IMG/VR virus record: IMGVR_UViG_3300003332_000014 | Location: 1 to 42,715 of that record | Length of the DNA stretch: 42,715 nt | Reading direction: 5' to 3' (one strand) | Source of the DNA: a virus | Shown here: positions 2,531 to 28,270 of the stretch, one piece after another | How positions within the stretch are numbered: the first letter of the stretch is position 1 | Layout: the number at the start of each line of letters is the position of its first letter | Translations under genes and position numbers: made by a program | The notes under the pieces: model-generated | What the model saw: the letters and a program-made list of their open reading frames with translations, nothing else | Database searches by the model: none | Told to the model about the DNA's origin: nothing

Positions 2531-3523
2531 CTACCATATTTTTACACCAAATCTTTGTCCTTTCATAAATGGAATACCGCCTAAACGCTTAACGAATGGT
2601 TGACCCGAAGGTTCGCCACTACTTTCTTCAGCACCAGCTGAACTAAAGGCGGGTTCTGGATCAGCGTACTTGCGAACACGGAAGTCATCGACATAACCCC
2701 TGACCTCTCTCGTAGAGATATTGATCGTTGCTGGAGTTCCAGAATAAACCCCCCCAGCAGTAGATGAACCAACCTCGTCATCATCAACATAAAATTTTGC
2801 CGTATCATCTTCGTCGTATTTGATCGTGAACTTATACCACACGTCTGGTTGATAATCAACATTTGTATCGTGTTCGCCGTTAGCATCTGTCCAATAGAAA
2901 TCTTGATCTACATTCGCTTTGTAGAACAACAATCGCCATATCAATTTCGATCGATCACTGTTTTTAATTTCAATATCGTGATATTTGAATCCCGTCTCGT
3001 CGATCTGCACATCAACTTCAAGGACTCCAGATGATGGCAGAACATCGGTTCTCCATGCGTTATCCCAATCTCGATTAACACCGCCAACATACGCACTATA
3101 GACACCACGTTTCGATCTATCACTTGAAGCAACAATGATACCATCAGTGCCCCAATTATTCACATCTCCATCCTCAAAATCATCGAAGAACTCAAAGGTA
3201 GCATATCCATCACTCGTTGTATTATCACCACTCTTCCCATAATAACAGTAAATACTTTGATCACTGCCAAGATCATCAGCAACCTTCACCCAGACAGTAA
3301 TCGGGTCAGCCGTCGTATCTTCAATCCAATAGCTAAGCTCAGTCACTCCATCATCATCAGTGAAGCGGATATCATGTGGGAAATTCTGACAATGACCTTC
3401 AAGGTGAAAATCACCACCAGCAGAATCACCAATCTCGAGCTTGATCTGGTAACCAGTACCAGCGCCACTCTGACCAGTGATGTTCACCTGTTTCCGATAT
3501 GAATATCCGCTCAACCACGCCAT
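2531..3523 (-). CDS. DUF2341 and lectin-like domain protein, putative receptor-binding or tail-tip protein
   Basis: 330 residues. The N-terminal half matches the DUF2341 pattern found in archaeal surface proteins: WLSGYSYRKQVNI at residue 3, then DIRFTDDDG, LSYWIE, VWVKV, IYCYYG and FEFFDDFEDG near residue 113. Residues 115-290 read as a concanavalin/LamG-like jelly roll (YKFTIKYDEDDTAKFYVDDDEV). The C-terminus ends in KRLGGIPFMKGQRFGVKIW. DUF2341 domains are associated with carbohydrate or surface binding. Position inside the virion operon, next to the giant fibre, suggests an adhesin on the tail. No signal peptide is seen, which fits a virion part rather than a secreted protein. Confidence 0.7.
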   Translation of the reverse strand: MAWLSGYSYRKQVNITGQSGAGTGYQIKLEIGDSAGGDFHLEGHCQNFPHDIRFTDDDGVTELSYWIEDTTADPITVWVKVADDLGSDQSIYCYYGKSGDNTTSDGYATFEFFDDFEDGDVNNWGTDGIIVASSDRSKRGVYSAYVGGVNRDWDNAWRTDVLPSSGVLEVDVQIDETGFKYHDIEIKNSDRSKLIWRLLFYKANVDQDFYWTDANGEHDTNVDYQPDVWYKFTIKYDEDDTAKFYVDDDEVGSSTAGGVYSGTPATINISTREVRGYVDDFRVRKYADPEPAFSSAGAEESSGEPSGQPFVKRLGGIPFMKGQRFGVKIW

Positions 3524-7449: not shown

Positions 7450-8634
7450 ATGATGATGGATGAGAAACTACTCTATGCTGTTGAATTGCTCGAGGGCTTC
7501 GACGGTTTTTATTATCATGAAGCCTTCGAGTCAGCAGATGATAACCTCAGAGAGTGCATTGAAAACTTTAAAGAGCTTGCACGTGTTGGATTTGAACTTG
7601 AATGTGCAAGCCTCAGTGATAATTATAGCGCCGATGTCTTCGGCGTAAAGGTCGAGACGGAGGCGCTCGAGTATTTCCATGATGCACTTGAGGAAATCAC
7701 TGACGTCGCATGGGAAGAAGCAACGGATAATCTACAGGATGCCCTTTATACTCTAAGGGATATCGTTACTGACTGCTCAGTGCAATCGGAACTGATAACA
7801 GAGCCATTAGAGATTAAAGAGATTGAACCAGTATTGAACTTCTGGCTGTGGTTTTTGCACAAGTGTGATCTCGAATGCTCACCAGAGCACGGTGCTGGCT
7901 GTCATATGACGGTCAGTCTTAAAGATCGCAGACTGCCAGACTTCGTAAAAGCGAACGTTGAACAGCTAACAGTGAGGTTCGCATTGCCTCTCGCATTATT
8001 ATCATGGCGAGAGTGCCATAGCGAACGAGATCGAGGGTACTTTAATCTTAACAGCATGCATGCCAATTATAATACAATGGGCATCGTGCTGTGGGAAAAT
8101 GAGGCAGAGGGCAAGATTCTATTGTCAATGCGCAATAAATACAGCTTTGTCCACGATAAAGAATTCCCAACAAACACAGCGTTTGAGTTTCGTTACCCAG
8201 ACGCATCAATGAACGCAAGACACTTATGGCGTGTCGCCATAGTTAATATGGCGATCGTCTTAAAGGCATTAAAGATCAGTTACTACTGGGGAGGCATCAT
8301 CCAGTGGAACTTAGCGAACACAGTTAATGCTTATGATGTGATAGACGAACTTAATAGCTTCCCTGATATTCAAGGAGCTATTAAGAAATACGACAGACAC
8401 ATCAAGGAATTCTTAGACTTCATACGACCAGAGATCGAAGAAATCACAGACGGTCATTATGATGAATGGTTCGAGGATGCTTTCGATGTTTACGCAAGGG
8501 ACGAGTATGACTTTATGCCAGCACACTTCGGAATTTACCCAGACCTTAAACTCAATCTCGCTGACTACATCGACAGAGACTATGAAGACGAATACATCGA
8601 TGATTATAAATATGATGAAGATCTATATCTGTGA
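7450..8634 (+). CDS. Amidoligase-like (carboxylate-amine ligase fold) paralogue 1
   Basis: 394 residues from ATG 7450 (ATGs at 7453 and 7456 are also possible). It shares an ordered motif set with the proteins at 10307, 11288 and 12232: VGFELE near residue 47, SELITEPL near 119, GAGCHMTVS near 148, KANVEQL near 165, FEFRYPD near 247 and a C-terminal PEIEEIT.GHYDEWF near 330. A FE(I/L)E strand, a D-x-S...E.V..P segment, a G-x-H turn and a late EFR motif, in this order, are the hallmarks of the glutamine-synthetase-fold amidoligase/GCS2 group, where Glu and His bind ATP and metal and Arg binds substrate. This copy is the most diverged (DCS for DGS) and has a long acidic tail. Proposed role: ATP-dependent amide bond formation, substrate unknown. 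Confidence 0.6.
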   Translation: MMMDEKLLYAVELLEGFDGFYYHEAFESADDNLRECIENFKELARVGFELECASLSDNYSADVFGVKVETEALEYFHDALEEITDVAWEEATDNLQDALYTLRDIVTDCSVQSELITEPLEIKEIEPVLNFWLWFLHKCDLECSPEHGAGCHMTVSLKDRRLPDFVKANVEQLTVRFALPLALLSWRECHSERDRGYFNLNSMHANYNTMGIVLWENEAEGKILLSMRNKYSFVHDKEFPTNTAFEFRYPDASMNARHLWRVAIVNMAIVLKALKISYYWGGIIQWNLANTVNAYDVIDELNSFPDIQGAIKKYDRHIKEFLDFIRPEIEEITDGHYDEWFEDAFDVYARDEYDFMPAHFGIYPDLKLNLADYIDRDYEDEYIDDYKYDEDLYL

Positions 8635-8656
8635 GTCGTTCGTTATAAGGTGATGA

Positions 8657-9001
8657 ATGATGAAGATTGAAAGGCGTAAAGTGTTATGGCTCGTTGGTCA
8701 TAAACCTTATGCAGAACAAGTTAGAGAGTTACAAACGATCTTTCATGCCGAGGTCGTTGTAGACACTCGGCATCTGGATTCAGTGGCTGAAATAGTTGAG
8801 AAGATGAAGAACATTGGGGCTGATGAAGTAGTCGTATCACTGCCAGATTCATGGCTTTGCGACTTACTGAAGCTCGGCATCCAGCCCATAAGAGCTAAGA
8901 TGCGAAGACTCTTTACACGTAATGGAAAACCAGTGTTTCAACACACTGGCTTTGAACGTGTAAAGAAATTTGAGTTGGAAGTTGAAAAATTAGAAAGTTA
9001 A
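8657..9001 (+). CDS. Small Rossmann-like hypothetical protein
   Basis: 114 residues; tandem ATGs at 8657 and 8660 after AAGGTGATGA. The alternation KVLWLVGHKP, AEVVVDTRH, ADEVVVSLPDSWL suggests a small alpha/beta fold, with a basic patch (IRAKMRRLFTRNGKP) later. I recall similar short proteins in phage genomes without a known role. It lies inside the amidoligase block between paralogue 1 and the amidotransferase, so a link to that pathway is possible but unproven. Confidence 0.55.
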   Translation: MMKIERRKVLWLVGHKPYAEQVRELQTIFHAEVVVDTRHLDSVAEIVEKMKNIGADEVVVSLPDSWLCDLLKLGIQPIRAKMRRLFTRNGKPVFQHTGFERVKKFELEVEKLES

Positions 9002-9013
9002 AGAGGTGATGAG

Positions 9014-9409
9014 ATGAAAGATATTAAAAAGTTTTATAGGGTCGAGCGGATAGACATATACCACGATAGTGGTATTACAATAGGTGATATCAAAACCGAT
9101 GAGCCATCATCGGTTTTCGAATACTTTAAGGAGATGAAAGAGCTAATAACCAAATCACACAAAGACTTCCCAGAGTTTACGTGTGATGGAGTCATTATAC
9201 AAGCAGACTTCATAAGCGTGCGTGATGTCAGTGATGAATTCGTAAAGCTGTGGCTCATCTGCGAGATGGTCACTGGCTTTACAGTGCAGAAGATAAACGC
9301 TCATCATAATGTCGCTGAGAAGTTCAAGAACTATGAATTAACGGGCGATGATTACCAGTATGCATTCACACAGTATTACTGGGAGTTATTGGAACTACTA
9401 AAACATTAA
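9014..9409 (+). CDS. Hypothetical protein in amidoligase block
   Basis: 131 residues from ATG 9014 after AAGAGGTGATGAG. Mixed alpha/beta, rich in acidic and aromatic residues (YHDSGITIGDIKTDEPS; YAFTQYYWELLELLKH at the end). No motif or family is recognised. It sits directly before the glutamine amidotransferase gene, whose ribosome binding site follows its stop at once, so the two are probably co-translated. Confidence 0.6.
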   Translation: MKDIKKFYRVERIDIYHDSGITIGDIKTDEPSSVFEYFKEMKELITKSHKDFPEFTCDGVIIQADFISVRDVSDEFVKLWLICEMVTGFTVQKINAHHNVAEKFKNYELTGDDYQYAFTQYYWELLELLKH

Positions 9410-9422
9410 GGAGGTGATGAAC

Positions 9423-10307
9423 ATGTGCGGTGTCATAGGCATGTATGTAGTGGATTCAAAAAAGGTTGTTGATGATATAAAAACAATTATGAAGTCTCAG
9501 ATCAGTCGAGGTAAAGAAGGCTTTGGGGCTTCAGTATTGATGGTTGATGGTGGTATGATTCACATCAGAGAACGATGGGAGACTTATGGTGAAGTATGGG
9601 AGTCATCATTCTGGAAGATTCCCAGCGACGGCGACTTCCTGTTATTCCATAATCGATTACCGACCAGCACTCCAAACATCGCAGAATGCAATCATCCAAT
9701 AGCCAATGAAGACGAGAGCATCATGATGGTTCATAATGGACATGTGTGGGTTTCTTCACACGAAGAGAACCACATGTTCAAGAACCATCACTTCGAGACA
9801 CTGCTAACAACCAAGCGATATATTGGTGATCGATTGATCGATGAGTCTTATGAGTATACGGACAGTGAGTATGCTGTCCATCAGCTCGAAGACCTCATTA
9901 AAGGCGGTAAAACAATTCTGGAGGCTGTCGAGCACGTAGGTGATCAGCACACAGCGTGTGCGTTCCTTTACACGCTAACGAAAACTAAAGGCATTTACTT
10001 CTCATCAAACATGCAGGACTTAACATATCAAGAAATGAAAAGCGATAATAAGGTAATATCAAGCGTCGGCGGTAAAGAATCGTTGATGAACAGTTATGGC
10101 GTGCTGACTGAGGACGACATAGTAACCCATGATCTCGAAACGTATGCAGTCAACTATTACGGCTACAACTACGAAATCAAGCGTGGTGATGCGAAAGTGC
10201 GGCGACTGACGGGTGATGAAACAAACGTCATCAAAAGACGTAAAGGCAAAGAATGGTGGTATGGAGATAACTATTACGATGGTGAGCGTATGTGGGTGGT
10301 GAGATAA
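9423..10307 (+). CDS. Class II glutamine amidotransferase (Ntn hydrolase)
   Basis: 294 residues from ATG 9423, chosen because it puts the catalytic cysteine at position 2 (MCGVIG), exposed after Met removal as this family requires, and because AGGAGGTGATGAAC precedes it. Other family motifs: HNRLPTS at 76-82 (the HTR/HNR glutamine-binding arginine), CNHPI at 89-93 and VHNG at 103-106. Known members (GlmS, PurF, AsnB, glutamate synthase domains) hydrolyse glutamine and pass ammonia to a partner domain. There is no synthetase or SIS domain here; the C-terminal 100 residues are unassigned and end basic. The partner is probably one or more of the flanking amidoligase-like proteins; the gene's stop overlaps the start of paralogue 2. 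Confidence 0.85.
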   Translation: MCGVIGMYVVDSKKVVDDIKTIMKSQISRGKEGFGASVLMVDGGMIHIRERWETYGEVWESSFWKIPSDGDFLLFHNRLPTSTPNIAECNHPIANEDESIMMVHNGHVWVSSHEENHMFKNHHFETLLTTKRYIGDRLIDESYEYTDSEYAVHQLEDLIKGGKTILEAVEHVGDQHTACAFLYTLTKTKGIYFSSNMQDLTYQEMKSDNKVISSVGGKESLMNSYGVLTEDDIVTHDLETYAVNYYGYNYEIKRGDAKVRRLTGDETNVIKRRKGKEWWYGDNYYDGERMWVVR

Positions 10308-11287
10308 TGAAAGTTGAAGAACTTTCTGGCTTTCTGGAATTTAGAGGGTTCAGGGAGCATACAAAACTCCCATCAACCCTCGATTTAAGTAACCTCAATG
10401 AGCGTCTGCGTGTAGGCTTTGAAATTGAAGGAGATGTATTACAAAAAGGTCGGGACAGACTCGAAATACACGGTAAACATTCACGTATCAACTCCGACCT
10501 GAAAGACCACCCTTACTTTAGTCTGGTCTATTATGATGGCAGTGTCGATACAGAACTGGTAACACAGCCAATCGAAATTAAGAACATCATCGATGTTATG
10601 CATGAATTTCAATGGGTCTTGAAAAATCATGGCGTGTCAATGTTGCCAGTAACAGGTGCTGGCGGTCATCAGACCGTTAGCGTTAAAGACCTGTTCATAG
10701 ACCGAGACATCAAAGTCAATATCGAGCAACTGACACGTTATTTCTCGCCAACACTGTTACGTCTTGGATGCATACCACATCTAACACATCATAGAAAGTA
10801 TTACTACCGAAAACTCAACGGCTCTGGCATTTACACATGGACACTCGATGGATACCATAAATACCGAGCATTACATTTCAAGAATTTCATGGACTGCAGT
10901 GGCTTCGAGTTCCGATACCCAGACGTGTTATCACCCATACACTCATGGGTATCGGCAGTGGCAAACGCATCGATAGTCTTAAAAGCGTTAAAGATTGATG
11001 ATGGTAGAATCAGATGGTCATGGGCATCCGAAGATGCGACAGTAAAAACGTATCATTACATGCTAAGCGGTAAATCCAACGCTTACATTCTTAAGAAACC
11101 GAGAGACTTCTACATTGAGAATGTTTACAGCGATACCAGAAGAATCAATAGAATACGATGGTTTAAAGAACATCAGAGGGACGTTGAGTTCTTCGAGTTC
11201 TTTAAGCCAGAGATTCAAGAGATCACTGGTGGTCAGTATGATGAGTGGTTCAAACATGTTTATGACTTTAATGGGATGGTGGTATAA
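10307..11287 (+). CDS. Amidoligase-like paralogue 2
   Basis: 326 residues from ATG 10307, overlapping the TAA of the amidotransferase gene (TAATG) with GGTGGTGAG upstream; a GTG at 10292 is less likely. Motifs in order: VGFEIEGD near residue 40, YDGSVDTELVTQPIEI near 80, GAGGHQTVSV near 120, KVNIEQLTRYF near 140, FEFRYPD near 202, VLKALKI near 227, PEIQEITGGQYDEWF near 305. It keeps every conserved residue of the group and could be the active member. Translational coupling to the amidotransferase suggests a stoichiometric complex in which ammonia is fed to the ligase. Substrate unknown. Confidence 0.65.
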   Translation: MKVEELSGFLEFRGFREHTKLPSTLDLSNLNERLRVGFEIEGDVLQKGRDRLEIHGKHSRINSDLKDHPYFSLVYYDGSVDTELVTQPIEIKNIIDVMHEFQWVLKNHGVSMLPVTGAGGHQTVSVKDLFIDRDIKVNIEQLTRYFSPTLLRLGCIPHLTHHRKYYYRKLNGSGIYTWTLDGYHKYRALHFKNFMDCSGFEFRYPDVLSPIHSWVSAVANASIVLKALKIDDGRIRWSWASEDATVKTYHYMLSGKSNAYILKKPRDFYIENVYSDTRRINRIRWFKEHQRDVEFFEFFKPEIQEITGGQYDEWFKHVYDFNGMVV

Positions 11288-12226
11288 ATGGACATTAAAG
11301 AATTAGAAGATTATGCTGGCATCTATAGGGATCAATCAATATCCCTGCTACCGAGTGAAGTCGAACTACTGCAAAAACTGATACCACGATTCAACGAGCG
11401 AGTCTGTTGTGGATTCGAACTTGAAGGCGATTGGACATACCATGAATATGCGAGAGTCGGTGGACGTGAAGCTATCATCGAGGAAGTGGACGAGTTGCAT
11501 AGCTTCATAATTGAAGCGGCAGAAGAGCAAGGAGGTCTTTATAGCACACTGTTAGATGCCTATGATGATGGAAGTGTAAACACCGAACTGGTAACACAAC
11601 CGTTAAGAGTTGATGAAATAGTGCCAGTGTTAGACCTGTGGCTGGATGTTCTTGATACATGCGGTGTCATATTCGATTCAAGAGTCGGGGCGGGTTGCCA
11701 CATGACAGTATCAGTGGGCACCAGTCTACCGTTAATCGTTAAAGCGAACGTCGAACAACTGGTACGTTATTTCATTCAACCACTATTAGAGTTCGGTTGT
11801 AATCATAAGCGGTCGAGACGAGATCATGAATACTATAGCTTTAACAAATCACCAATAAAACGCCTTAAAAGAGGCGACCGACTTAATGGCGAAAACAAAT
11901 ATAAAGCTGTCCACTTCAAGGAATTCGGTGATGTTACAGCATTTGAATTCAGATACCCAGATCCAGCGCCGACGAGAAAACTTTACTCGATCGCCACATT
12001 GAATATGGCGATAGTATTGAAGGCAATTAAAATATCGTTCAAATATAATGGAGTTTTTAAAATTAAAAACTCCAGAATTCGAGCGAGTGAAAGTGCATAT
12101 CAATGGGATGGTTGTGATTCAGAGCTTATCGACGAATTCATAGACTTCATGGCTGATGATATCAAAAGCATAAGTGGTCTAACACTTGAAGAATGGATGT
12201 GGCATATTGAGAATCAGGAGGTATAA
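11288..12226 (+). CDS. Amidoligase-like paralogue 3
   Basis: 312 residues; ATG 11288 follows the previous stop without a gap, with GGTGGT upstream. Motifs: CGFELEGD near residue 41, YDDGSVNTELVTQPLRV near 94, GAGCHMTVSVG near 133, KANVEQLVRYF near 152, FEFRYPDPAP near 220. The C-terminal DEWF motif of the paralogues is weaker here (LEEWMWHI). A helical insertion lies between the first two motifs. Divergence from its neighbours suggests a distinct substrate or step, not simple dosage. Assignment to the carboxylate-amine ligase fold rests on motif order, not on a search. Confidence 0.6.
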   Translation: MDIKELEDYAGIYRDQSISLLPSEVELLQKLIPRFNERVCCGFELEGDWTYHEYARVGGREAIIEEVDELHSFIIEAAEEQGGLYSTLLDAYDDGSVNTELVTQPLRVDEIVPVLDLWLDVLDTCGVIFDSRVGAGCHMTVSVGTSLPLIVKANVEQLVRYFIQPLLEFGCNHKRSRRDHEYYSFNKSPIKRLKRGDRLNGENKYKAVHFKEFGDVTAFEFRYPDPAPTRKLYSIATLNMAIVLKAIKISFKYNGVFKIKNSRIRASESAYQWDGCDSELIDEFIDFMADDIKSISGLTLEEWMWHIENQEV

Positions 12227-12231
12227 GAACG

Positions 12232-13419
12232 ATGGATATTAAAGATGTTGATGGTTTTGATGGGTTTAGCGGTCGAGCATCCATTGACCTCGATTATGCC
12301 AGACACTTCTCAGAAGTATCACGGCACTTTAAAAGTGTCGTGCGTATAGGCTTTGAGATCGAGGGCAACAGCTCGTTACCGAAAACGATCAATTGCCCAC
12401 GCTGTGGGCAGGAAGTAACGATCCATGAATACGAACAACTCCATCGAATCATCCACTATCTGATCCACAATGGCAAACATCACGCATTAAAGCAAGCGAT
12501 AAAAATATACTGGGATGGTAGCGTAGATACTGAGTTGGTAACACAACCGTTAAGAATTGATGACATAAAGCCAGTGCTAACATTCTTCATGGGTCTTCTG
12601 CAAACTTTCGGGGTCAGCATGTCGCCAGACACAAGAGCTGGCGGGCATCAAACAATAAGCGTCGGTGAGCGGTTGCCAGACGTTTATCTGGCGAATATTG
12701 AACAGTTATCAAGACGATTCGCACCAACACTCACCAGAGTTGCATGCAGTCCTTACGATACATACAGAAGATCCACACGCTTCAGAGTTCTTAATGAGTC
12801 ACCGATACACCACTACCCATTAGATGGGTGGGAAGAGAAGTATCGGTTCGTTCACTTTAAAGATTATGAAACAGTGACTGGCATAGAGTTTAGATACCCA
12901 GACGTATTACCACCAGAATACAATTACGTATCAGCGATCCTGAACATGGCTTTAGTGTGGAAAGCCATTAAGATCACAAATCGTTACAGGAAAGTGATTA
13001 CATGGAAGAACGTAATCATCAGAGAACAAAAGAATGCCTATCACACGATGATCGATGACTCGACGTATGTTGGCGATGATTACGAAGAATATCACGTTGC
13101 AGATAACTATGAATGGCTGAGATACTACAACACTCATGATACAATCGTCGATGCAGAAATCGATGGTCACTGGTGGTATAGGCGTGAAGATGATGACACA
13201 CTGTTCAAGCTATTGCGACCAGAGATTGAAGCACTGACGGGTGATTATGATGAATGGTATAAGCACGTGTATAACTACAGCGAGATGCTGAACTATCGAG
13301 TAGACGACTTTGACTACAGTACTATCGAATGCGAAAAATTCGCAGAAGATGATGGGATTGATCTTAATATTGAAGAAGAGCCACCACGTAGAATAAGAGT
13401 TATCGGGAGGGTGCTGTAA
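12232..13419 (+). CDS. Amidoligase-like paralogue 4 with CxxC insert
   Basis: 395 residues from ATG 12232 after CAGGAGGTATAAG. Motifs: IGFEIEGN near residue 41, WDGSVDTELVTQPLRI near 98, RAGGHQTISVG near 139, LANIEQLSRRF near 160, IEFRYPDVLP near 220 and PEIEALTGDYDEWY near 330. After the first motif it carries a CPRCGQEV insert, a likely half zinc knuckle supported by nearby histidines, which the other three lack. The C-terminus adds an acidic extension ending basic (EEPPRRIRVIGRVL). Its stop overlaps the start of the next gene (TAATG), so the ligase block is coupled to the CxVC trio that follows. Confidence 0.6.
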   Translation: MDIKDVDGFDGFSGRASIDLDYARHFSEVSRHFKSVVRIGFEIEGNSSLPKTINCPRCGQEVTIHEYEQLHRIIHYLIHNGKHHALKQAIKIYWDGSVDTELVTQPLRIDDIKPVLTFFMGLLQTFGVSMSPDTRAGGHQTISVGERLPDVYLANIEQLSRRFAPTLTRVACSPYDTYRRSTRFRVLNESPIHHYPLDGWEEKYRFVHFKDYETVTGIEFRYPDVLPPEYNYVSAILNMALVWKAIKITNRYRKVITWKNVIIREQKNAYHTMIDDSTYVGDDYEEYHVADNYEWLRYYNTHDTIVDAEIDGHWWYRREDDDTLFKLLRPEIEALTGDYDEWYKHVYNYSEMLNYRVDDFDYSTIECEKFAEDDGIDLNIEEEPPRRIRVIGRVL

Positions 13420-13943
13420 TGGTCGATAGCTGGTGTGAAGTCGAGATCAGTGGAAGCCATTTTACGCATAGTGGTTGTAGCGTCTGCTACACTAATGATG
13501 GCAAAATCACTGTAAGGCGATTGTTCAATGATGTCATTGAGCCGTTAAATGTGCTCGGCGAGGAAGAGCTAAAATTGACAATCGACGTAAACGGCAACTT
13601 CCACGTACGCTCACTACCGCTTCCACTCGCAAGACGAGATTACGATGGCATCGACGATTGTCGTAAATTCGCAATCAACGTTACGTCGACCTATCATCTT
13701 CCAGTTCGATATTTCCAGCACATTCCATTCAACGATCATAATGGCGAAGTGATCGATGAGATTCGGTATTATGACAATGCACATGCTTTCAAGATCTCAG
13801 AACGTCCAGATACTGGCGTCGATATCGTCGAGATCGATGGTAAACAGTATCTGAGACTGTGGATCAATCTGATATCACCACCATTCATAGACACAGTGCT
13901 GGATAATTTCTATCATGCGTTACCAGAGAGGTGGTTCGAATGA
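13419..13943 (+). CDS. CxVC-family paralogue 1 (unknown function)
   Basis: 174 residues, ATG 13419 overlapping the previous stop, with GGGAGGGTG upstream. The first of three tandem related proteins. Shared landmarks: an N-terminal WCEVEI strand followed by CSVC near residue 20, DDCRKFAI in the middle, and a C-terminal VEIDGKQYLRLWI then a helix ending in W. The CxVC could bind metal or form a disulfide. No known family is recognised. Tight coupling to the amidoligase-like genes suggests a substrate, carrier or partner of that pathway, which is inference only. Confidence 0.6.
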   Translation: MVDSWCEVEISGSHFTHSGCSVCYTNDGKITVRRLFNDVIEPLNVLGEEELKLTIDVNGNFHVRSLPLPLARRDYDGIDDCRKFAINVTSTYHLPVRYFQHIPFNDHNGEVIDEIRYYDNAHAFKISERPDTGVDIVEIDGKQYLRLWINLISPPFIDTVLDNFYHALPERWFE

Positions 13944-14473
13944 TCATAAATGAGCTGGCACTTACAAACACTGAAGTACTTACACGCACGCTATCTATAG
14001 AATGTCCAGTATGTGATTGCACTGATATCACTGTCAATACAATCAGCTATATCGCATTAATGAAAAAGCGATATGGCTATAACATAACAGTGACAACGGA
14101 TGATAGCATTTTCTATGTCCGTAGTTCTTCAGAAGAGGTCTTCGGTGACGTCTACCATCTGGCATCTACAAACAACTTCAGAGCTATCGCAGACTTCAAC
14201 ATCATAGTTCCACTGGGCAGTCGAGCTAAAGTCACTGAATTCATTGACATATTTAAGTCGCTCGATGATGGGCAAAATGACTACCACATCGACATTATTA
14301 AATACGATCAAATCCAGAGTATCAGAGATATTCATAAACGATGGGGCATACGCCTTACGGTCCAATTGACACCCACAAACCACTTGACCAGTTACTCACT
14401 GCCACTCATCGGATTCGCAACGACTTACGAAATCATAAAAAACGATAAGATCGTGAGTTTGAACTGGGGGTGA
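13940..14473 (+). CDS. CxVC-family paralogue 2 (unknown function)
   Basis: 177 residues from ATG 13940, which overlaps the previous TGA (ATGA); an in-frame GTG at 13931 exists but falls on the ribosome binding site. It shares the N-terminal CPVC-x-C motif followed by an ITV strand, the central NNFRAIADF segment (compare DDCRKFAI and DNCRTIAF in the others) and similar length. The C-terminal VEIDG motif is lost and replaced by another strand-rich segment, so this is the most diverged of the three. Function unknown. Confidence 0.55.
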   Translation: MIINELALTNTEVLTRTLSIECPVCDCTDITVNTISYIALMKKRYGYNITVTTDDSIFYVRSSSEEVFGDVYHLASTNNFRAIADFNIIVPLGSRAKVTEFIDIFKSLDDGQNDYHIDIIKYDQIQSIRDIHKRWGIRLTVQLTPTNHLTSYSLPLIGFATTYEIIKNDKIVSLNWG

Positions 14474-14478
14474 CTGAC

Positions 14479-15003
14479 ATGCGATCGCATTGTGAAGTAT
14501 TTATACATCAATCGTTTATTAGTCAGTGGCATTCATGCCACGTGTGTTCACGCAGATACGGTATACCAGTGACCACTATTGTAGCATACACCGACCCAGA
14601 ACAGGATCCAGTGAACTTTTATACCGACAGTCATGGATCTTTAAAGATCAGAAGTGAGTGTGTAGATGTTTGCCAGAGAGTCAGAGGTATCGACAATTGT
14701 CGAACTATAGCATTCTGGTTGCTAAGGAACTTTGCAGTATATTTGACATACCGACAGTTTATAGTTATTGATTCAGTGGACGAGGGATATCAAATACTCA
14801 ATGATGCATTGGCGGTCATAAACAACAGCTCTCTTACACTCGCTGGTGCATTAAAGCTTGGGATTGTTGAAATTGATGGCGTTCTACACATTGAAGTTTG
14901 CATTGCAACCGAATGTCCATCGGAACTTGAACATGAACTCTGTTGCTTCTATATGGGTCTGGGATTCGATGAGTGTAGGGAGCAATGGGCGAAAGCTATA
15001 TAA
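14479..15003 (+). CDS. CxVC-family paralogue 3 (unknown function)
   Basis: 174 residues from ATG 14479, preceded by GGGGGTGA at the right distance; a GTG at 14470 is possible. It matches paralogue 1 along its length: HCEVFI then CHVC, DNCRTIAF, IVEIDGVLHIEVCI, and a cysteine-rich final helix ending in W. The TAA stop is embedded in the TATA box of promoter copy P4, so transcription of the following genes restarts exactly at the end of this one. Function unknown. Confidence 0.55.
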   Translation: MRSHCEVFIHQSFISQWHSCHVCSRRYGIPVTTIVAYTDPEQDPVNFYTDSHGSLKIRSECVDVCQRVRGIDNCRTIAFWLLRNFAVYLTYRQFIVIDSVDEGYQILNDALAVINNSSLTLAGALKLGIVEIDGVLHIEVCIATECPSELEHELCCFYMGLGFDECREQWAKAI

Positions 15004-21062: not shown

Positions 21063-21509
21063 ATGGTTGGTTTTGGTGAAGCACACATTGTCAGGTATTT
21101 AAACAAGATGTTCGAGACTAAAGGTATACACGCTTTTGCGTGGCGGATACCACAGCTCAGATACAGATTACAGGTTGCTGATATTGTTGTGGATTCGCCG
21201 TTACCAGAGTTCTTTATGGCAATTGAGGTTAAATCATGTGGGACTCCGCATTATTTCAACATCGACGCACGTGGACGCTCGAAGGCACTCAATGCAACAC
21301 AGCTTGAAATTTTGTGTAACTTCGCTGACAAGACAGGACGTCTGCCCTATTATGTCATAGCTTATAGACCAAAGCGTAAAGTCACTCACGGTAAAGCGAC
21401 CTTCTACACCATTGATGCATATGAACTTCTCGAATTGTTTAAAGCTGGTAGGAAGCGTATAAGTTTGAAGGATGAATGTTATGAAGGAATTATATTCCCT
21501 GCTGAGTAA
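21063..21509 (+). CDS. Hjc-like archaeal Holliday junction resolvase
   Basis: 148 residues from ATG 21063 (GAGGG upstream; TTG 21057 possible). PD-(D/E)XK pattern: EAHIVRYLNKMFETKG at the start, LQVADIVVDSPLP near 38-50 with the catalytic Asp, then FFMAIEVKSC near 53-62 (the ExK pair), and Q-rich helix and strand FADKTGRLPYYVIAYRP. This is the layout of archaeal Hjc, which cleaves four-way junctions as a dimer. Viruses use such enzymes to clear branched DNA before packaging or in recombination-driven replication. Size is close to the family norm (about 125-150). Confidence 0.7.
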   Translation: MVGFGEAHIVRYLNKMFETKGIHAFAWRIPQLRYRLQVADIVVDSPLPEFFMAIEVKSCGTPHYFNIDARGRSKALNATQLEILCNFADKTGRLPYYVIAYRPKRKVTHGKATFYTIDAYELLELFKAGRKRISLKDECYEGIIFPAE

Positions 21510-22332
21510 TCTCTTCATACATCGCTGGGACACTTATGCTGTCCAGACTGATGATGGTAGATACGTTAGAGTTGATGAGCCAGTGACTGAAGATTTAATA
21601 CGCCAACATCTCTTGGGTGACATCACTATTGGTGTTTATCAGGTATATAATGGCACTGTGAAGTGGATATGCTATGATATCGATGATCACCATGGCACTG
21701 GTGACATGTTCGATCTATTGCGTGTGATGGTGTGTCTGGGCGAGCGTGGTATTCAATATTATGTCGAAGAGAGCGGCAGTCCTAATAGCTATCATGTGTG
21801 GGTGTTTATAGAAGAGACGCCCGTTGAAGATGCCTATGTCTTCGCACGTTCACTTGTAAAAGGCGTTGATGTTGAAGTGTTTCCAAAACAGAAGAAGCCA
21901 AAGCCTTATGGCAATCTCGTCAAATTACCACTCGGTCTCAATCGAAAGACTGGAAAATTTTCGAAAATGCGATTACCGAAAGTAATGGTTGATCGTATAA
22001 GCGTTCCGAATATGAAGATGCTTGCAGTCGAACATGATTATAGTGTGATGCCAGTGGGCATTCGTCCATGTTTGAAGCGTTTGATGGATGAAAAGGTTGA
22101 ACTCATTGGTACTTATGGGCATGCGACCAGATGTGCGTTGTGTGTTGAGCTCTTGAATAATGGTGTCAGTATTGAAGATATTCATGAAATCTTCAAATCT
22201 CAGAGTGATTATGATTATGATTATACTCAGAGACAGATTGAGTCATTGCTCGGGTATAAACGTTATAAATGTTCAACACTCCGAGAACAGTGTGGTCATT
22301 ACATAAAGGGGTGTGAGAGCTGTGGTGTTTAA
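21481..22332 (+). CDS. Archaeo-eukaryotic primase (TOTE/PrimPol-like catalytic domain)
   Basis: 283 residues from ATG 21481, overlapping the resolvase gene (GAAGGATGA upstream; ATG 21472 possible). Motifs: VKWICYDIDDHHG (catalytic Asp pair near 60-64), GSPNSYHVWVFIE (the SxH motif, near 102) and DVEVFPKQ with GNLVKLPLG near 137-155, all characteristic of the primase domain found in TOTE conflict systems and viral PrimPols. The C-terminal 70 residues hold cysteines (CALCVEL; CSTLREQCGHYIKGCESC) as in iron-sulfur or zinc primase tails. It should make primers for viral replication; with no polymerase in the genome, a PrimPol activity is also possible. Confidence 0.8.
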   Translation: MKELYSLLSNLFIHRWDTYAVQTDDGRYVRVDEPVTEDLIRQHLLGDITIGVYQVYNGTVKWICYDIDDHHGTGDMFDLLRVMVCLGERGIQYYVEESGSPNSYHVWVFIEETPVEDAYVFARSLVKGVDVEVFPKQKKPKPYGNLVKLPLGLNRKTGKFSKMRLPKVMVDRISVPNMKMLAVEHDYSVMPVGIRPCLKRLMDEKVELIGTYGHATRCALCVELLNNGVSIEDIHEIFKSQSDYDYDYTQRQIESLLGYKRYKCSTLREQCGHYIKGCESCGV

Positions 22333-23008
22333 ATTATTCGAAGAACCATTCATCTCTGGTATAGAAGTGCATGATGATCTGGCACTCGTAGTGCCATTGA
22401 GTTATTGTAATTTGAAATGTCCAAAATGCCATGTTAGGGGATTAATGAATCGAGTAATTAAAGAGTATACGGTTCGTGAGTTCTTCGAGTTTCTGAGAGA
22501 TGAAGATTGTTTAGATCTGACTATATGCTTCACTGGTGGTGATCCATTATTATACACTGAAGAGCTTGATGAATTTCAAGAATTTATGATCGACTATAAA
22601 CTTAAAGTGGTTATTGAGACGAACGGTATTGGTTTTAAATTATTGCCAGCTGTTCGTTACTGGTATATAGATGTTAAAGCTCCATTATTGCCATCACCAG
22701 TTCATGAGTATGTTGGTGTTAATATCACTTTCGGTACATATTACAACTGTATTCGTAAACTTGCAAGAGCGTATCCACTGAACTCGTACTATAGAATGAC
22801 TTTGATTGATGGTCTATTCGATTCGCCAGAGTATATAGTTTATAATACAAGAGTGATAGCAAGGAACCTCGGTGATCGGATAATAATTAATCAGGGCAAT
22901 GTTAGCGATGAGAAACTCGAAGAGGTATTGGATTTTATGCGTGAAGAATCTCTCGATTTATTAGATATTATGGTTTTTTCGAAGAATCAGGGATGGTTCA
23001 AGCTTTAA
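22325..23008 (+). CDS. nrdG: Anaerobic ribonucleotide reductase activating protein (radical SAM)
   Basis: About 227 residues; GTG 22325 or 22322 fits AAGGGGTGTGAGAGCT, and GTG 22313 is also in frame. CNLKCPKC supplies the CxxxCxxC that holds the 4Fe-4S cluster, followed by CFTGGDPLLY, the SAM-binding GGE/GGD-P motif, and VIETNG. The enzyme generates the glycyl radical of NrdD, which is encoded 14 bases downstream. The similar radical-SAM family QueE makes a 7-deazaguanine precursor, but the NrdD neighbour and lack of other queuosine-type genes favour NrdG. Acts in the cytoplasm and is inactivated by oxygen. Confidence 0.8.
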   Translation: MFKLFEEPFISGIEVHDDLALVVPLSYCNLKCPKCHVRGLMNRVIKEYTVREFFEFLRDEDCLDLTICFTGGDPLLYTEELDEFQEFMIDYKLKVVIETNGIGFKLLPAVRYWYIDVKAPLLPSPVHEYVGVNITFGTYYNCIRKLARAYPLNSYYRMTLIDGLFDSPEYIVYNTRVIARNLGDRIIINQGNVSDEKLEEVLDFMREESLDLLDIMVFSKNQGWFKL

Positions 23009-23021
23009 GAGGTGATGTGTA

Positions 23022-24794
23022 ATGAAGACAGTCGATATCGAAGGTCATTTTATTCGCTATATAGCTGATTCACATGATGATAAAAATGAGAATGCTAATC
23101 ATGGTAAGAGCATAAGTGGCATGAAGTCTTCGCTTCTGAAGCTTGTGGTATCTTCGGAGACAATAAGACAGTTACTCGAAGATGCAAACAGCTATGAGCG
23201 AGAACTCTTCAAAGCAAACACCATACACGTTCACAAAGCTGAAGGCAGTGTTTATGCTCCATATTGCTGTGGTCTGTCGCTTGAGAAGTTATTACATGAA
23301 GGTCTTGGCGTTGGTTCTGCAGTGCGTTCACGTCCAGCTAAACACCTCGACGTGGCTATTGATCACATGGGAACGTTGATACAGATAATGGCTAATGAGT
23401 ATGAAGGTGCTGTGGCTTTCAGTGGCGTTGACACGTTACTGGCACCATTTATTGATAAAGATAAGCTTGAATATAGAGATGTTAAGCAGTGTATTCAAAG
23501 ATTCGTATACGGTCTTAACTATGAGTCACGTCAGGCATTTCAGACACCATTCTCCAACGTGACATTTGATTTTGACGTGCCAGAAAGCGATAGAGATAAA
23601 TACGCTATAATTGGTGGTGAGATATACGATAAGCCCTATGGTGAGCTACAGCGTGAAAGTGATATGATTAAACAGGCGTTCTTTGAAGTATTAAGTGAAG
23701 GTGATGCCAACGGTGCACCGTTCACGTTCCCAATACCAACGTTTAAAATATTCGGTGATAAAGATAGGCTTTTAGATCTTGAAGATCCAGTAAGTAGACA
23801 ACTATGGGATTTAACATGTAAAACAGGGGCACCTTATTTCGCAAATTACACAAACAGAACGGAGGATGCTGCACTATCGATGTGTTGTAGGCTGAACATT
23901 GATCTTGACGAAGTACGTGGTACTGGGTTATGGAATATTGGTTCAAGCACAGGTTCACTCGCTATCAACACCATCAACTTAAATGCTGTTGCATGCAAGT
24001 CACTTCTGGATCATATTGACTTCTTCGATCTCTTACGTGACGTTTGCGACTTAACAGCTAAAATGCTTTTGAAGCGTAAGGATTATATACTCTATGGTTA
24101 CGAACATGGATTATTGCCGTATACACGTGGCTACATCAACACACTCGAAACATTCTTCTTAACTATTGGTCTCGTTGGTGCAGCCGATGCGTATGTGAAC
24201 TATTATCGCAAAAGAATCGATGATATTAAAGATTTTACGGATTTCTGTGTGAATATTCTCAATACCATCAACGAACGTGTTGAATATTATAAAGCTAATA
24301 GTGACTGGAAGCTCTGGAACGTTGAACAATCGCCTGCTGAAGGATCTGCACATTCACTTGCGAGACGTGATAGACGACTATATCGTTGTTACACGGGCGG
24401 TATCGCTGGCAGTGAGTATTTAACAAACTCAACACATCTACCAGTCGATATGCAGTTAACGCTTGAACACATTAAACATCGAAGTGTAACCGATAATCTT
24501 TATAGTGGTGGAACACTTTTGAACTTTTACACTTCAGAAGTTATGGAAAGTGCCAGAACAATGCAACTTATAAAGCGACTGGTCATTAAGAGTCAGTTGC
24601 CTTATGTAGCATATACGCCGACGTTTAAAGTATGTCCAGTTCATGGTTATGCAGGTATTGGCATAGAGCGTTGTAAGGACTGTGGACGTGAGCTTGTTAA
24701 CTATACAAGAGTTGTCGGGTATATTAGACCCACCACACGCTTTAACCCAGGTCAGTTGAGACAGTTCATGGATAGGAGGTATTCAAGTGCCTAA
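23022..24794 (+). CDS. nrdD: Anaerobic (class III) ribonucleoside-triphosphate reductase
   Basis: 590 residues from ATG 23022 after AAGAGGTGATG. It reduces NTPs to dNTPs by glycyl radical chemistry. Landmarks: YAPYCCGLSLEKLL near 78-91 (the first active-site cysteine region), a GADAYVNYY-type barrel segment (LVGAADAYVNYYRKR), and the C-terminal zinc site CPVH...CKDC near 545-560 followed by the glycyl radical loop RVVGYIR near 568. The usual loop is RVCGYL; here Val replaces Cys, and the zinc ligands appear to be C-x-x-H and C-x-x-C. No ATP-cone domain precedes the catalytic core, so the enzyme may escape dATP inhibition, a common viral simplification. Confidence 0.85.
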   Translation: MKTVDIEGHFIRYIADSHDDKNENANHGKSISGMKSSLLKLVVSSETIRQLLEDANSYERELFKANTIHVHKAEGSVYAPYCCGLSLEKLLHEGLGVGSAVRSRPAKHLDVAIDHMGTLIQIMANEYEGAVAFSGVDTLLAPFIDKDKLEYRDVKQCIQRFVYGLNYESRQAFQTPFSNVTFDFDVPESDRDKYAIIGGEIYDKPYGELQRESDMIKQAFFEVLSEGDANGAPFTFPIPTFKIFGDKDRLLDLEDPVSRQLWDLTCKTGAPYFANYTNRTEDAALSMCCRLNIDLDEVRGTGLWNIGSSTGSLAINTINLNAVACKSLLDHIDFFDLLRDVCDLTAKMLLKRKDYILYGYEHGLLPYTRGYINTLETFFLTIGLVGAADAYVNYYRKRIDDIKDFTDFCVNILNTINERVEYYKANSDWKLWNVEQSPAEGSAHSLARRDRRLYRCYTGGIAGSEYLTNSTHLPVDMQLTLEHIKHRSVTDNLYSGGTLLNFYTSEVMESARTMQLIKRLVIKSQLPYVAYTPTFKVCPVHGYAGIGIERCKDCGRELVNYTRVVGYIRPTTRFNPGQLRQFMDRRYSSA

Positions 24795-26736: not shown

Positions 26737-26955
26737 ATGAGTGAAATTGATAGGCTCATAGAGGTTCACAAGAGAGAGATTGAGAAGGTAACTAAAGAGA
26801 TCCGTAGAGTGAAAGAACAGATCAGTGATTTAAATGTGATTCTTGAAGAGCATGAAGCGTGGAAGATCCACTTACAAGGCAGACTTTCAGTGTTGATGGA
26901 AATACGGGGTGGCAATGATGAAAGAGCTAAAGAGAATGATGGGTCACGCGAGTGA
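26737..26955 (+). CDS. Small coiled-coil protein (72 aa)
   Basis: ATG 26737 is preferred because GGAGGTGATGTT lies just before it; the frame opens earlier at 26704. The protein is nearly all heptad-patterned helix (IDRLIEVHKREIEKVTKEIR, then RVKEQISDLNVILEEHE). It overlaps the start of the DHH nuclease gene by about 40 bases in another frame. A structural partner or oligomerisation factor is likely. Confidence 0.5.
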   Translation: MSEIDRLIEVHKREIEKVTKEIRRVKEQISDLNVILEEHEAWKIHLQGRLSVLMEIRGGNDERAKENDGSRE

Positions 26956-28270
26956 CCTCATCAACCACCTTAAAACGTTAAAGAGCAATAGTGTGCCAGT
27001 GCGAATCATAACACATACTGATGCTGATGGGATAACGAGTGCGGCAATAACATCTATCACTCTAAAGCACTTAAATATCGAACACACTGTCGAGTATTTG
27101 AACCAGATACCAGAGAACTATCGTCCACCGAGCTATGGCGTTTCAATATACACAGACCTTGGCTCAAGCACTCCAGGCATTGTTTTTTATGAAAATGCAG
27201 TGATTCTTGATCATCACGTACCGTGCACTCGGAAGTGCAACAAATTGCATTTAAATCCACATCACTATGGCTTTGATGGTGGCAGTGAATGCAGTGGTAG
27301 TGTTGTTGCGTGGTTGGTTGCGAGAGCGGCTGGTGTTGATGATCCATTTGTCGATTATCTTGCGATTGTTGGTGCTGTTGGTGACTTACAGGCGCATGGG
27401 CGTTTTGGATTAGTTGGACTTAACAGATTGCCAGTGAACAAAGGTCTGCGTGACCACAGCATTCAAATAGTGGTAACCATCTGTGCTTATGGTCGTCATC
27501 AGCGAAGAGTCGATAAGTTGCTCGAGTATATGGACACTCCAATGATCGAAGGTATCACTGGTAACCCAGAAGGTGTTGAACGTTTTCTCAGAGAACTTAA
27601 GATAGATCCAGCGTTAAAGTGGTGTGAGCTTTCGAGTTCTGAGAAACAAAAGATATTAACAGCGTTGGAAGAGCGTGCACCCGATGGAGCAATAGTCACG
27701 TGCGAGGCGTATGAGTATCGACACGCTGAAGTATGCACGAATTATCGAGACGCGCAAGAGTTTTCAACACTTTTAAACGCTTGTGCTCGCAATGATGCAC
27801 CAGAGCTTGGTCTCAAGTTATGCTTAAATCCAAAAGAAGCTGAAGCGAGAGAAGCAGCTGATGTGATGTTGAATAGACACAAACAAAGGCTTGTTGAGGC
27901 TTTGAATGTTTTGAAAGCAACAATACCCTATGAGCTTGAACATGTGTTAGTATTTGAACCTTTCAAGCGGATACCCGAACGCATCATTGGCATTGTTATT
28001 GGGATGATGTTAAGTGAATACCCAAGCAAGGTTTTAGTGGGAACATCGAGAACAATTGATGGTAAAATTAAAATGAGTCTACGTGCCAACAAGTTCTTGA
28101 CTGATAAAGGCGTTGATCTCTCTGAAGTTGTCAAACACGTCACAGCGAATGTCGGTGGTGTTGGTGGCGGACACTCTGGCGCTGCTGGACTTGTCATTGA
28201 GCCAGCATTAAAAGCCAAAGCTATACATCTCATGAGTGAACTCATTGACAAGCAGATAAGAGGCTCATAG
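26915..28270 (+). CDS. DHH-family phosphoesterase, archaeal RecJ/GAN-like nuclease
   Basis: 451 residues from ATG 26915 (GGGGTGG upstream; GTG 26909 and ATG 26918 possible). DHH motifs: ITHTDADGITSAA (I, near 33-45), VSIYTDLGSS (II), VILDHHVP near 97-104 (III) and VGAVGDLQAHG near 152 (IV); then the DHHA1 domain ending in GGVGGGHSGAAG near 430. Archaeal RecJ homologues (GAN) are 5'-3' or 3'-5' exonucleases that associate with the GINS/CMG replisome; related proteins degrade nucleotides. A viral copy at the end of the replication unit suggests primer removal, recombination or nucleotide recycling. Confidence 0.8.
   Translation: MMKELKRMMGHASDLINHLKTLKSNSVPVRIITHTDADGITSAAITSITLKHLNIEHTVEYLNQIPENYRPPSYGVSIYTDLGSSTPGIVFYENAVILDHHVPCTRKCNKLHLNPHHYGFDGGSECSGSVVAWLVARAAGVDDPFVDYLAIVGAVGDLQAHGRFGLVGLNRLPVNKGLRDHSIQIVVTICAYGRHQRRVDKLLEYMDTPMIEGITGNPEGVERFLRELKIDPALKWCELSSSEKQKILTALEERAPDGAIVTCEAYEYRHAEVCTNYRDAQEFSTLLNACARNDAPELGLKLCLNPKEAEAREAADVMLNRHKQRLVEALNVLKATIPYELEHVLVFEPFKRIPERIIGIVIGMMLSEYPSKVLVGTSRTIDGKIKMSLRANKFLTDKGVDLSEVVKHVTANVGGVGGGHSGAAGLVIEPALKAKAIHLMSELIDKQIRGS

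Follow-up and report, generated by a model that had tools for sequence, protein, structure and literature searches.

Why would a virus carry four amidoligase-like genes together with a single glutamine amidotransferase gene? Such a block occupies positions 7450-13419 of the virus record IMGVR_UViG_3300003332_000014, which was analyzed over its whole length of 42,715 bases (hereafter the window) and contains terminase, portal, capsid and tail genes. Judging from sequence comparison and a structural model of one copy, the four proteins are amidoligase-like enzymes with a predicted glutamine synthetase (GS) fold. We propose, with a probability of roughly 45%, that the block is an archaeal-virus variant of an amidoligase cassette already known from phages, in which the amidotransferase would feed ligases that differ in carboxylate or step, the host envelope being the most likely target. 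The block consists of the following genes.

7450-8634, plus strand: amidoligase-like paralogue, copy 1, 394 amino acids (aa), assigned from its PF12224 match (7.9e-6, 26.4 bits) and its motifs
8657-9001, plus strand: small open reading frame (ORF) inside the operon, 114 aa, with a weak sub-cut-off Pfam match to Tra_M
9014-9409, plus strand: small ORF inside the operon, 131 aa, with no Pfam match
9423-10307, plus strand: class II (Ntn) glutamine amidotransferase (GATase), 294 aa, assigned from matches to PF13522, PurF and phiEco32-type GATases
10307-11287, plus strand: amidoligase-like paralogue, copy 2, 326 aa, assigned from an AlphaFold2 (AF2) model with the GS fold
11288-12226, plus strand: amidoligase-like paralogue, copy 3, 312 aa, assigned from its PF12224 match (2.7e-5, 24.6 bits) and its motifs
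12232-13419, plus strand: amidoligase-like paralogue, copy 4, 395 aa, assigned from its identity to copies 2 and 3

The four diverged paralogues that the original prediction had placed at 7450, 10307, 11288 and 12232 are confirmed as ORFs. They are 29-37% identical to one another over nearly their full length, with pairwise BLASTP E values from 1e-34 to 2e-57 (computed for a database of 1e6 residues), and copy 4 shares 37% identity with copy 3 and 35% with copy 2. Fifty columns are invariant in the alignment of the four copies. The motifs GFExE, DxSVxxELxTxP, AGxHxT[VI]S, NxEQL, KYxxxHxK and xEFRYPD are found once each and in the same order in every copy; in copy 1, for example, GFELE is located at 47, DCSVQSELITEP at 108, AGCHMTVS at 149 and FEFRYPD at 245. 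Thus the shared ordered motifs described in the original prediction are present in all four copies, but two of them had been worded too strictly: the second motif of copy 1 is the variant DCSVQSELITEP instead of DGSV.TELVTQP, and copy 3 carries EEWM rather than DEWF/Y as its C-terminal motif. Since the full motif set has been kept in all four copies, none of them looks decayed.

The assignment to the amidoligase family is supported by profile and structure comparisons. Copies 1 (26.4 bits) and 3 (24.6 bits) score above the curated cut-off of the Pfam family PF12224 (Amidoligase_2), which is 22 bits. Copy 1 scored 18 bits, below the cut-off, in a six-frame search of the record, so its match should be considered real but weak. 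Copies 2 and 4 have no PF12224 match of their own and are 32-37% identical to copy 3. An AF2 model of copy 2, built from a five-sequence alignment, reaches a predicted template modeling score (pTM) of 0.76. When this model was compared with known structures, the best 50 matches were all glutamine synthetases and YbdK/GCS2-type ligases (Z 13.7-15.1; best match 1tt4, Z 15.1), with about 235 residues aligned to the GS-fold structures at a root-mean-square deviation of 3.5-4.4. Its Foldseek matches include viral proteins named amidoligase. The ligase motifs sit on core strands of the model, and FEFRYPD is aligned with IEVRFPD of E. coli GlnA, a stretch that contains the GS active-site residues Glu357 and Arg359 in the established GS numbering. 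A sequence search of the PDB with the ligase profile gave chance matches only. The amidoligase/GS-fold assignment made earlier therefore holds, with PF12224 passed by two copies and Z values of about 14-15 for a third, and the structure prediction that had been suggested as a check for an unrelated fold returned the GS fold.

The product of 9423-10307 is, by its sequence, a class II GATase with its catalytic residues in place. Cys2, HNR, HNG and SE/TD-type residues are those expected in class II amidotransferases. All of them are found here, with an MCG start (Cys2), HNR at 76, HNG at 104 and TDSE at 146, so that TDSE can be added to the stand-alone enzyme with Cys2, HNR and HNG that had been predicted. 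The protein matches PF13522 (GATase_6) at 6.7e-6 with 26.6 bits, just below the cut-off of 27, PurF chains in the PDB at 6e-5 (two-sequence profile), and phiEco32-type GATases in a profile comparison with 89% probability. Its AF2 model from two sequences has a mean confidence (pLDDT) of 34.5. The gene lies between copies 1 and 2 as predicted, but the two small ORFs at 8657-9001 and 9014-9409 lie there as well. All genes of 7450-13419 are on a single strand with a few to about 22 bases of spacing or overlap between neighbors, an operon-like layout in which the start of copy 2 overlaps the stop of the GATase gene (10307).

The original prediction knew of no viral system of this make-up, and in this respect it was mistaken. 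An amidoligase and a GATase, usually with a COOH-NH2 ligase, an ATP-grasp enzyme and a gamma-glutamyl cyclotransferase (GGCT), have been described as a cassette of many phages (PMC3890496, PMC10580990, PMC5498523), namely phiEco32-, LUZ24- and RIO-1-like ones, and the window system is not without precedent. In phiEco32, UFV-P2, RIO-1 and T2S2, the block comprises a GATase, a PF14395 COOH-NH2 ligase, one PF12224 ligase, an ATP-grasp enzyme and GGCT. For this cassette, PMC10580990 and PMC5498523, which credit Iyer et al., propose cell-wall modification and superinfection exclusion. The phiEco32 ligase finds 304 places in 301 phage records by tblastn. All five such phages checked have one PF12224 match per genome, and four ligase copies in a row are therefore unusual. 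By tblastn, phage records yielded nothing convincing for copies 1 and 2 or for the GATase; Bacillus phage G, the best match of copy 1 (E 0.5), was rejected as chance.

The nearest relative found in IMG/VR, and the only one returned by the scans for close relatives, is the tailed virus G001 (IMGVR_UViG_3300017963_000105), which has one ligase gene immediately followed by a GATase gene. Its ligase is 28-36% and its GATase about 33-37% identical to the window proteins, and adjacency and order are alike. G001 differs from the window in its single ligase with a Cys-rich insert, its PolA (DNA polymerase A) replication genes and its virus lineage. The window copies score 126-187 bits against each other, versus 52-91 bits against the G001 ligase. 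Because they are nearer to each other than to the G001 ligase, the sequences point to a ligase expansion within the window virus's own lineage. In copy 4, the stretch between motifs 1 and 2 contains a CPRCG insert. The Cys-rich insert of the G001 ligase (L002:4133-5902) likewise falls between the first two active-site motifs, and both are possible zinc-binding insertions. Two other candidates were discarded: an IMG/VR pattern match (L035) is a terminase, and the sole match of a genome-contig scan is a bacterial PurF.

A similar pairing may occur in haloviruses. According to a survey of archaeal tailed viruses (PMC8651126), phiCh1 and ChaoS9 have a class II amidotransferase. In both viruses, which belong to Vertoviridae, the gene directly upstream of the GATase is annotated merely as uncharacterised, and its product carries the motifs GMEIE or GMEVE, DASGPRE, GSHVH and IELR. 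The adjacency of the ligase-like gene and the GATase gene is kept in two further IMG/VR contigs. Halovirus proteins with GS/GCS2-like motif order, encoded directly upstream of a GATase, are located as follows.

L025:916-1983 (phiCh1)
L026:916-1989 (ChaoS9)
L033:1426-2490
L034:4001-5038

A simplified ordered pattern derived from these ligase families, GxExE / DxS..E / GxHx[HT] / E[FLVY]R, fits all four window copies, the G001 ligase, YbdK and some phage PF12224 proteins. It matches none of 4160 shuffled frames, a control that is not fully independent since the phiCh1 sequence had already been seen when its motif pattern was composed. The halovirus ligase-like protein has no Pfam family match, and its profile comparison is not significant. 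The upstream gene is probably an unannotated amidoligase, an assignment that is based on motif order and is a lead rather than proof.

The genes outside the block bear on the question of which host is involved. The portal protein matched 55 records, nearly all of them named haloarchaeal viruses, and the best-matching places of TerL are in Halorubrum viruses. The RecJ protein at 26909-28270 scores 343 bits with the RecJ_archaeal model (cut-off 360) versus 46 bits with the bacterial recJ model, and tblastn against 50,697 phage records found no match for it. Given the archaeal-type RecJ, the halovirus-like portal and a TerL nearest to Halorubrum viruses, the window most likely belongs to the archaeal tailed viruses (Caudoviricetes). 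An anaerobic ribonucleotide reductase, NrdD, adjoins an NrdG2-like radical SAM activase at 22313-24794, and its presence suggests an anaerobic host. The thymidylate synthase matches TIGR03283 (methanogen type) at 2e-19, below the model cut-off. GGTG-type ribosome-binding sites precede 19 of the 27 starts in the window, and a census of archaeal TATA boxes was uninformative (3 sites versus 2.5 expected). A TOTE-type archaeo-eukaryotic primase is encoded at 21472-22332, and no DNA polymerase gene was recognized among the window ORFs searched. A DUF2341 domain protein (2531-3523, 1e-18) lies beside a large ORF of 839 aa that extends past the first base of the window. Directly after copy 4, 13419-13943 and 14470-15003 encode two paralogues of about 175 aa with a shared CxxC, which BLASTP matches at 2e-7 within a set of seven proteins. 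The intervening ORF, 13931-14473, has no clear relation to either.

Read as a variant of the phage cassette in an archaeal virus, the block would work as follows. With ATP and Mg2+ bound in its predicted GS-type active site, each paralogue would turn a carboxylate into an acyl phosphate by phosphorylation and then join an amine to it, forming an amide. Glutamine hydrolysis by the class II GATase would be the source of NH3 for at least one ligase. Labor would most likely be divided among the four copies, which would act on different carboxylates or at successive steps of one pathway. The target would most likely be a host envelope polymer or a surface protein that is modified after infection, for example to exclude other viruses. 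This purpose is favored by analogy with the phage cassette, and the recurrence of the ligase-GATase pairing in the unrelated virus G001 also counts in favor of the proposal.

Several observations weigh against it. In the published accounts found, the phage cassette's envelope role is itself a prediction. An archaeal host lacks murein, so that a peptidoglycan target cannot be transferred from the phages, and the window contains no sign of a pseudomurein host. GGCT (PF06094) had no match in the window record, which may be incomplete, in a search whose control was positive. A RimK-type ATP-grasp enzyme had no match in the window either, a weak test because the phiEco32 ATP-grasp enzyme itself falls below the RimK cut-off. 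With no GGCT and no ATP-grasp enzyme recognized, the window pathway would have to differ from that of the phages. Moreover, the motifs align between the phiEco32-type and window ligase profiles, but the match is not significant (2% probability). The PF14395 COOH-NH2 ligase had no match in the window, but the control search was also without a match.

We have also considered a four-enzyme, glutamine-fed line of amide ligation in a virus of an anaerobic archaeon, in which every ligase has its own substrate and a novel non-ribosomal modification of envelope or protein results. This seems unlikely to us; if true, amidoligase/GATase pairs would be an overlooked strategy of archaeal viruses, with a simpler form in phiCh1 and ChaoS9.

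Targets other than the envelope can be ranked in falling order as small-molecule synthesis, protein tagging and DNA modification. PafA, Dop and GmaS are all among the structural matches of the copy 2 model, and they lend themselves to different readings. As carboxylate-amine ligases, GmaS and YbdK would suit an operon that acts on a small molecule or cofactor, making or modifying it to serve infection, such as an amino acid conjugate, a gamma-glutamyl peptide or a methanogen coenzyme. Four diverged copies would also suit successive additions, but no transport, carrier or peptidase gene was recognized beside the operon, and we consider this explanation possible, if doubtful. PafA, the Pup ligase, and Dop raise the prospect that the ligases amidate or tag virion or host proteins, for which the small neighboring ORFs (8657, 9014, 13419-15003) could be substrates. 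However, the scores of PafA and Dop do not rise above those of most GS-family members and no Pup-like gene was recognized, which makes protein tagging quite unlikely.

A further explanation, which can be combined with any of these targets, is that catalysis is confined to some of the copies, the extra ones serving as structural or regulatory subunits of a single hetero-oligomeric ligase. GS enzymes are oligomers, and here a single GATase serves four ligase genes; the retention of the full motif set in all four copies argues otherwise, and this arrangement appears improbable. Modification of viral DNA bases through the amidotransferase, as in deoxyarchaeosine phages, is very improbable because neither a 7-deazaguanine gene nor a hypermodification gene turned up (no QueC-, QueD-, QueF- or TGT-like gene among the ORFs searched), even though class II amidotransferases act in some phage base modifications and the window has nucleotide-metabolism genes, of which the NrdG2-like radical SAM gene beside NrdD and the methanogen-type thymidylate synthase look like plain dNTP supply. 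The dG+ of phage 9g is discussed in PMC5567051.

Compared with known enzymes, the window ligases resemble E. coli YbdK and glutamine synthetase in fold and in ordered active-site motifs, and differ from them in substrates and in having no significant sequence similarity to them. Like the window, phiCh1 and ChaoS9 have a class II GATase directly downstream of a ligase-like gene, one such gene versus four, which suggests that the GATase noted in these two viruses is half of a pair. The ligase of the phage cassette is present in about 300 phage records, and its function is still a prediction in the literature found. A stripped-down set of ligases and GATase in the virus of a murein-free host provides a test of the peptidoglycan explanation, and the window operon offers a small, defined set of proteins for assay. 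The phiEco32/LUZ24/RIO-1 cassette and the window both pair a PF12224 ligase with a class II GATase in a single gene block of a tailed virus. They differ in that the window has four PF12224-like copies rather than one and belongs to an archaeal virus. What is new here is thus a system without GGCT or a recognizable ATP-grasp enzyme, with four intact ligase copies, carried by an archaeal tailed virus.

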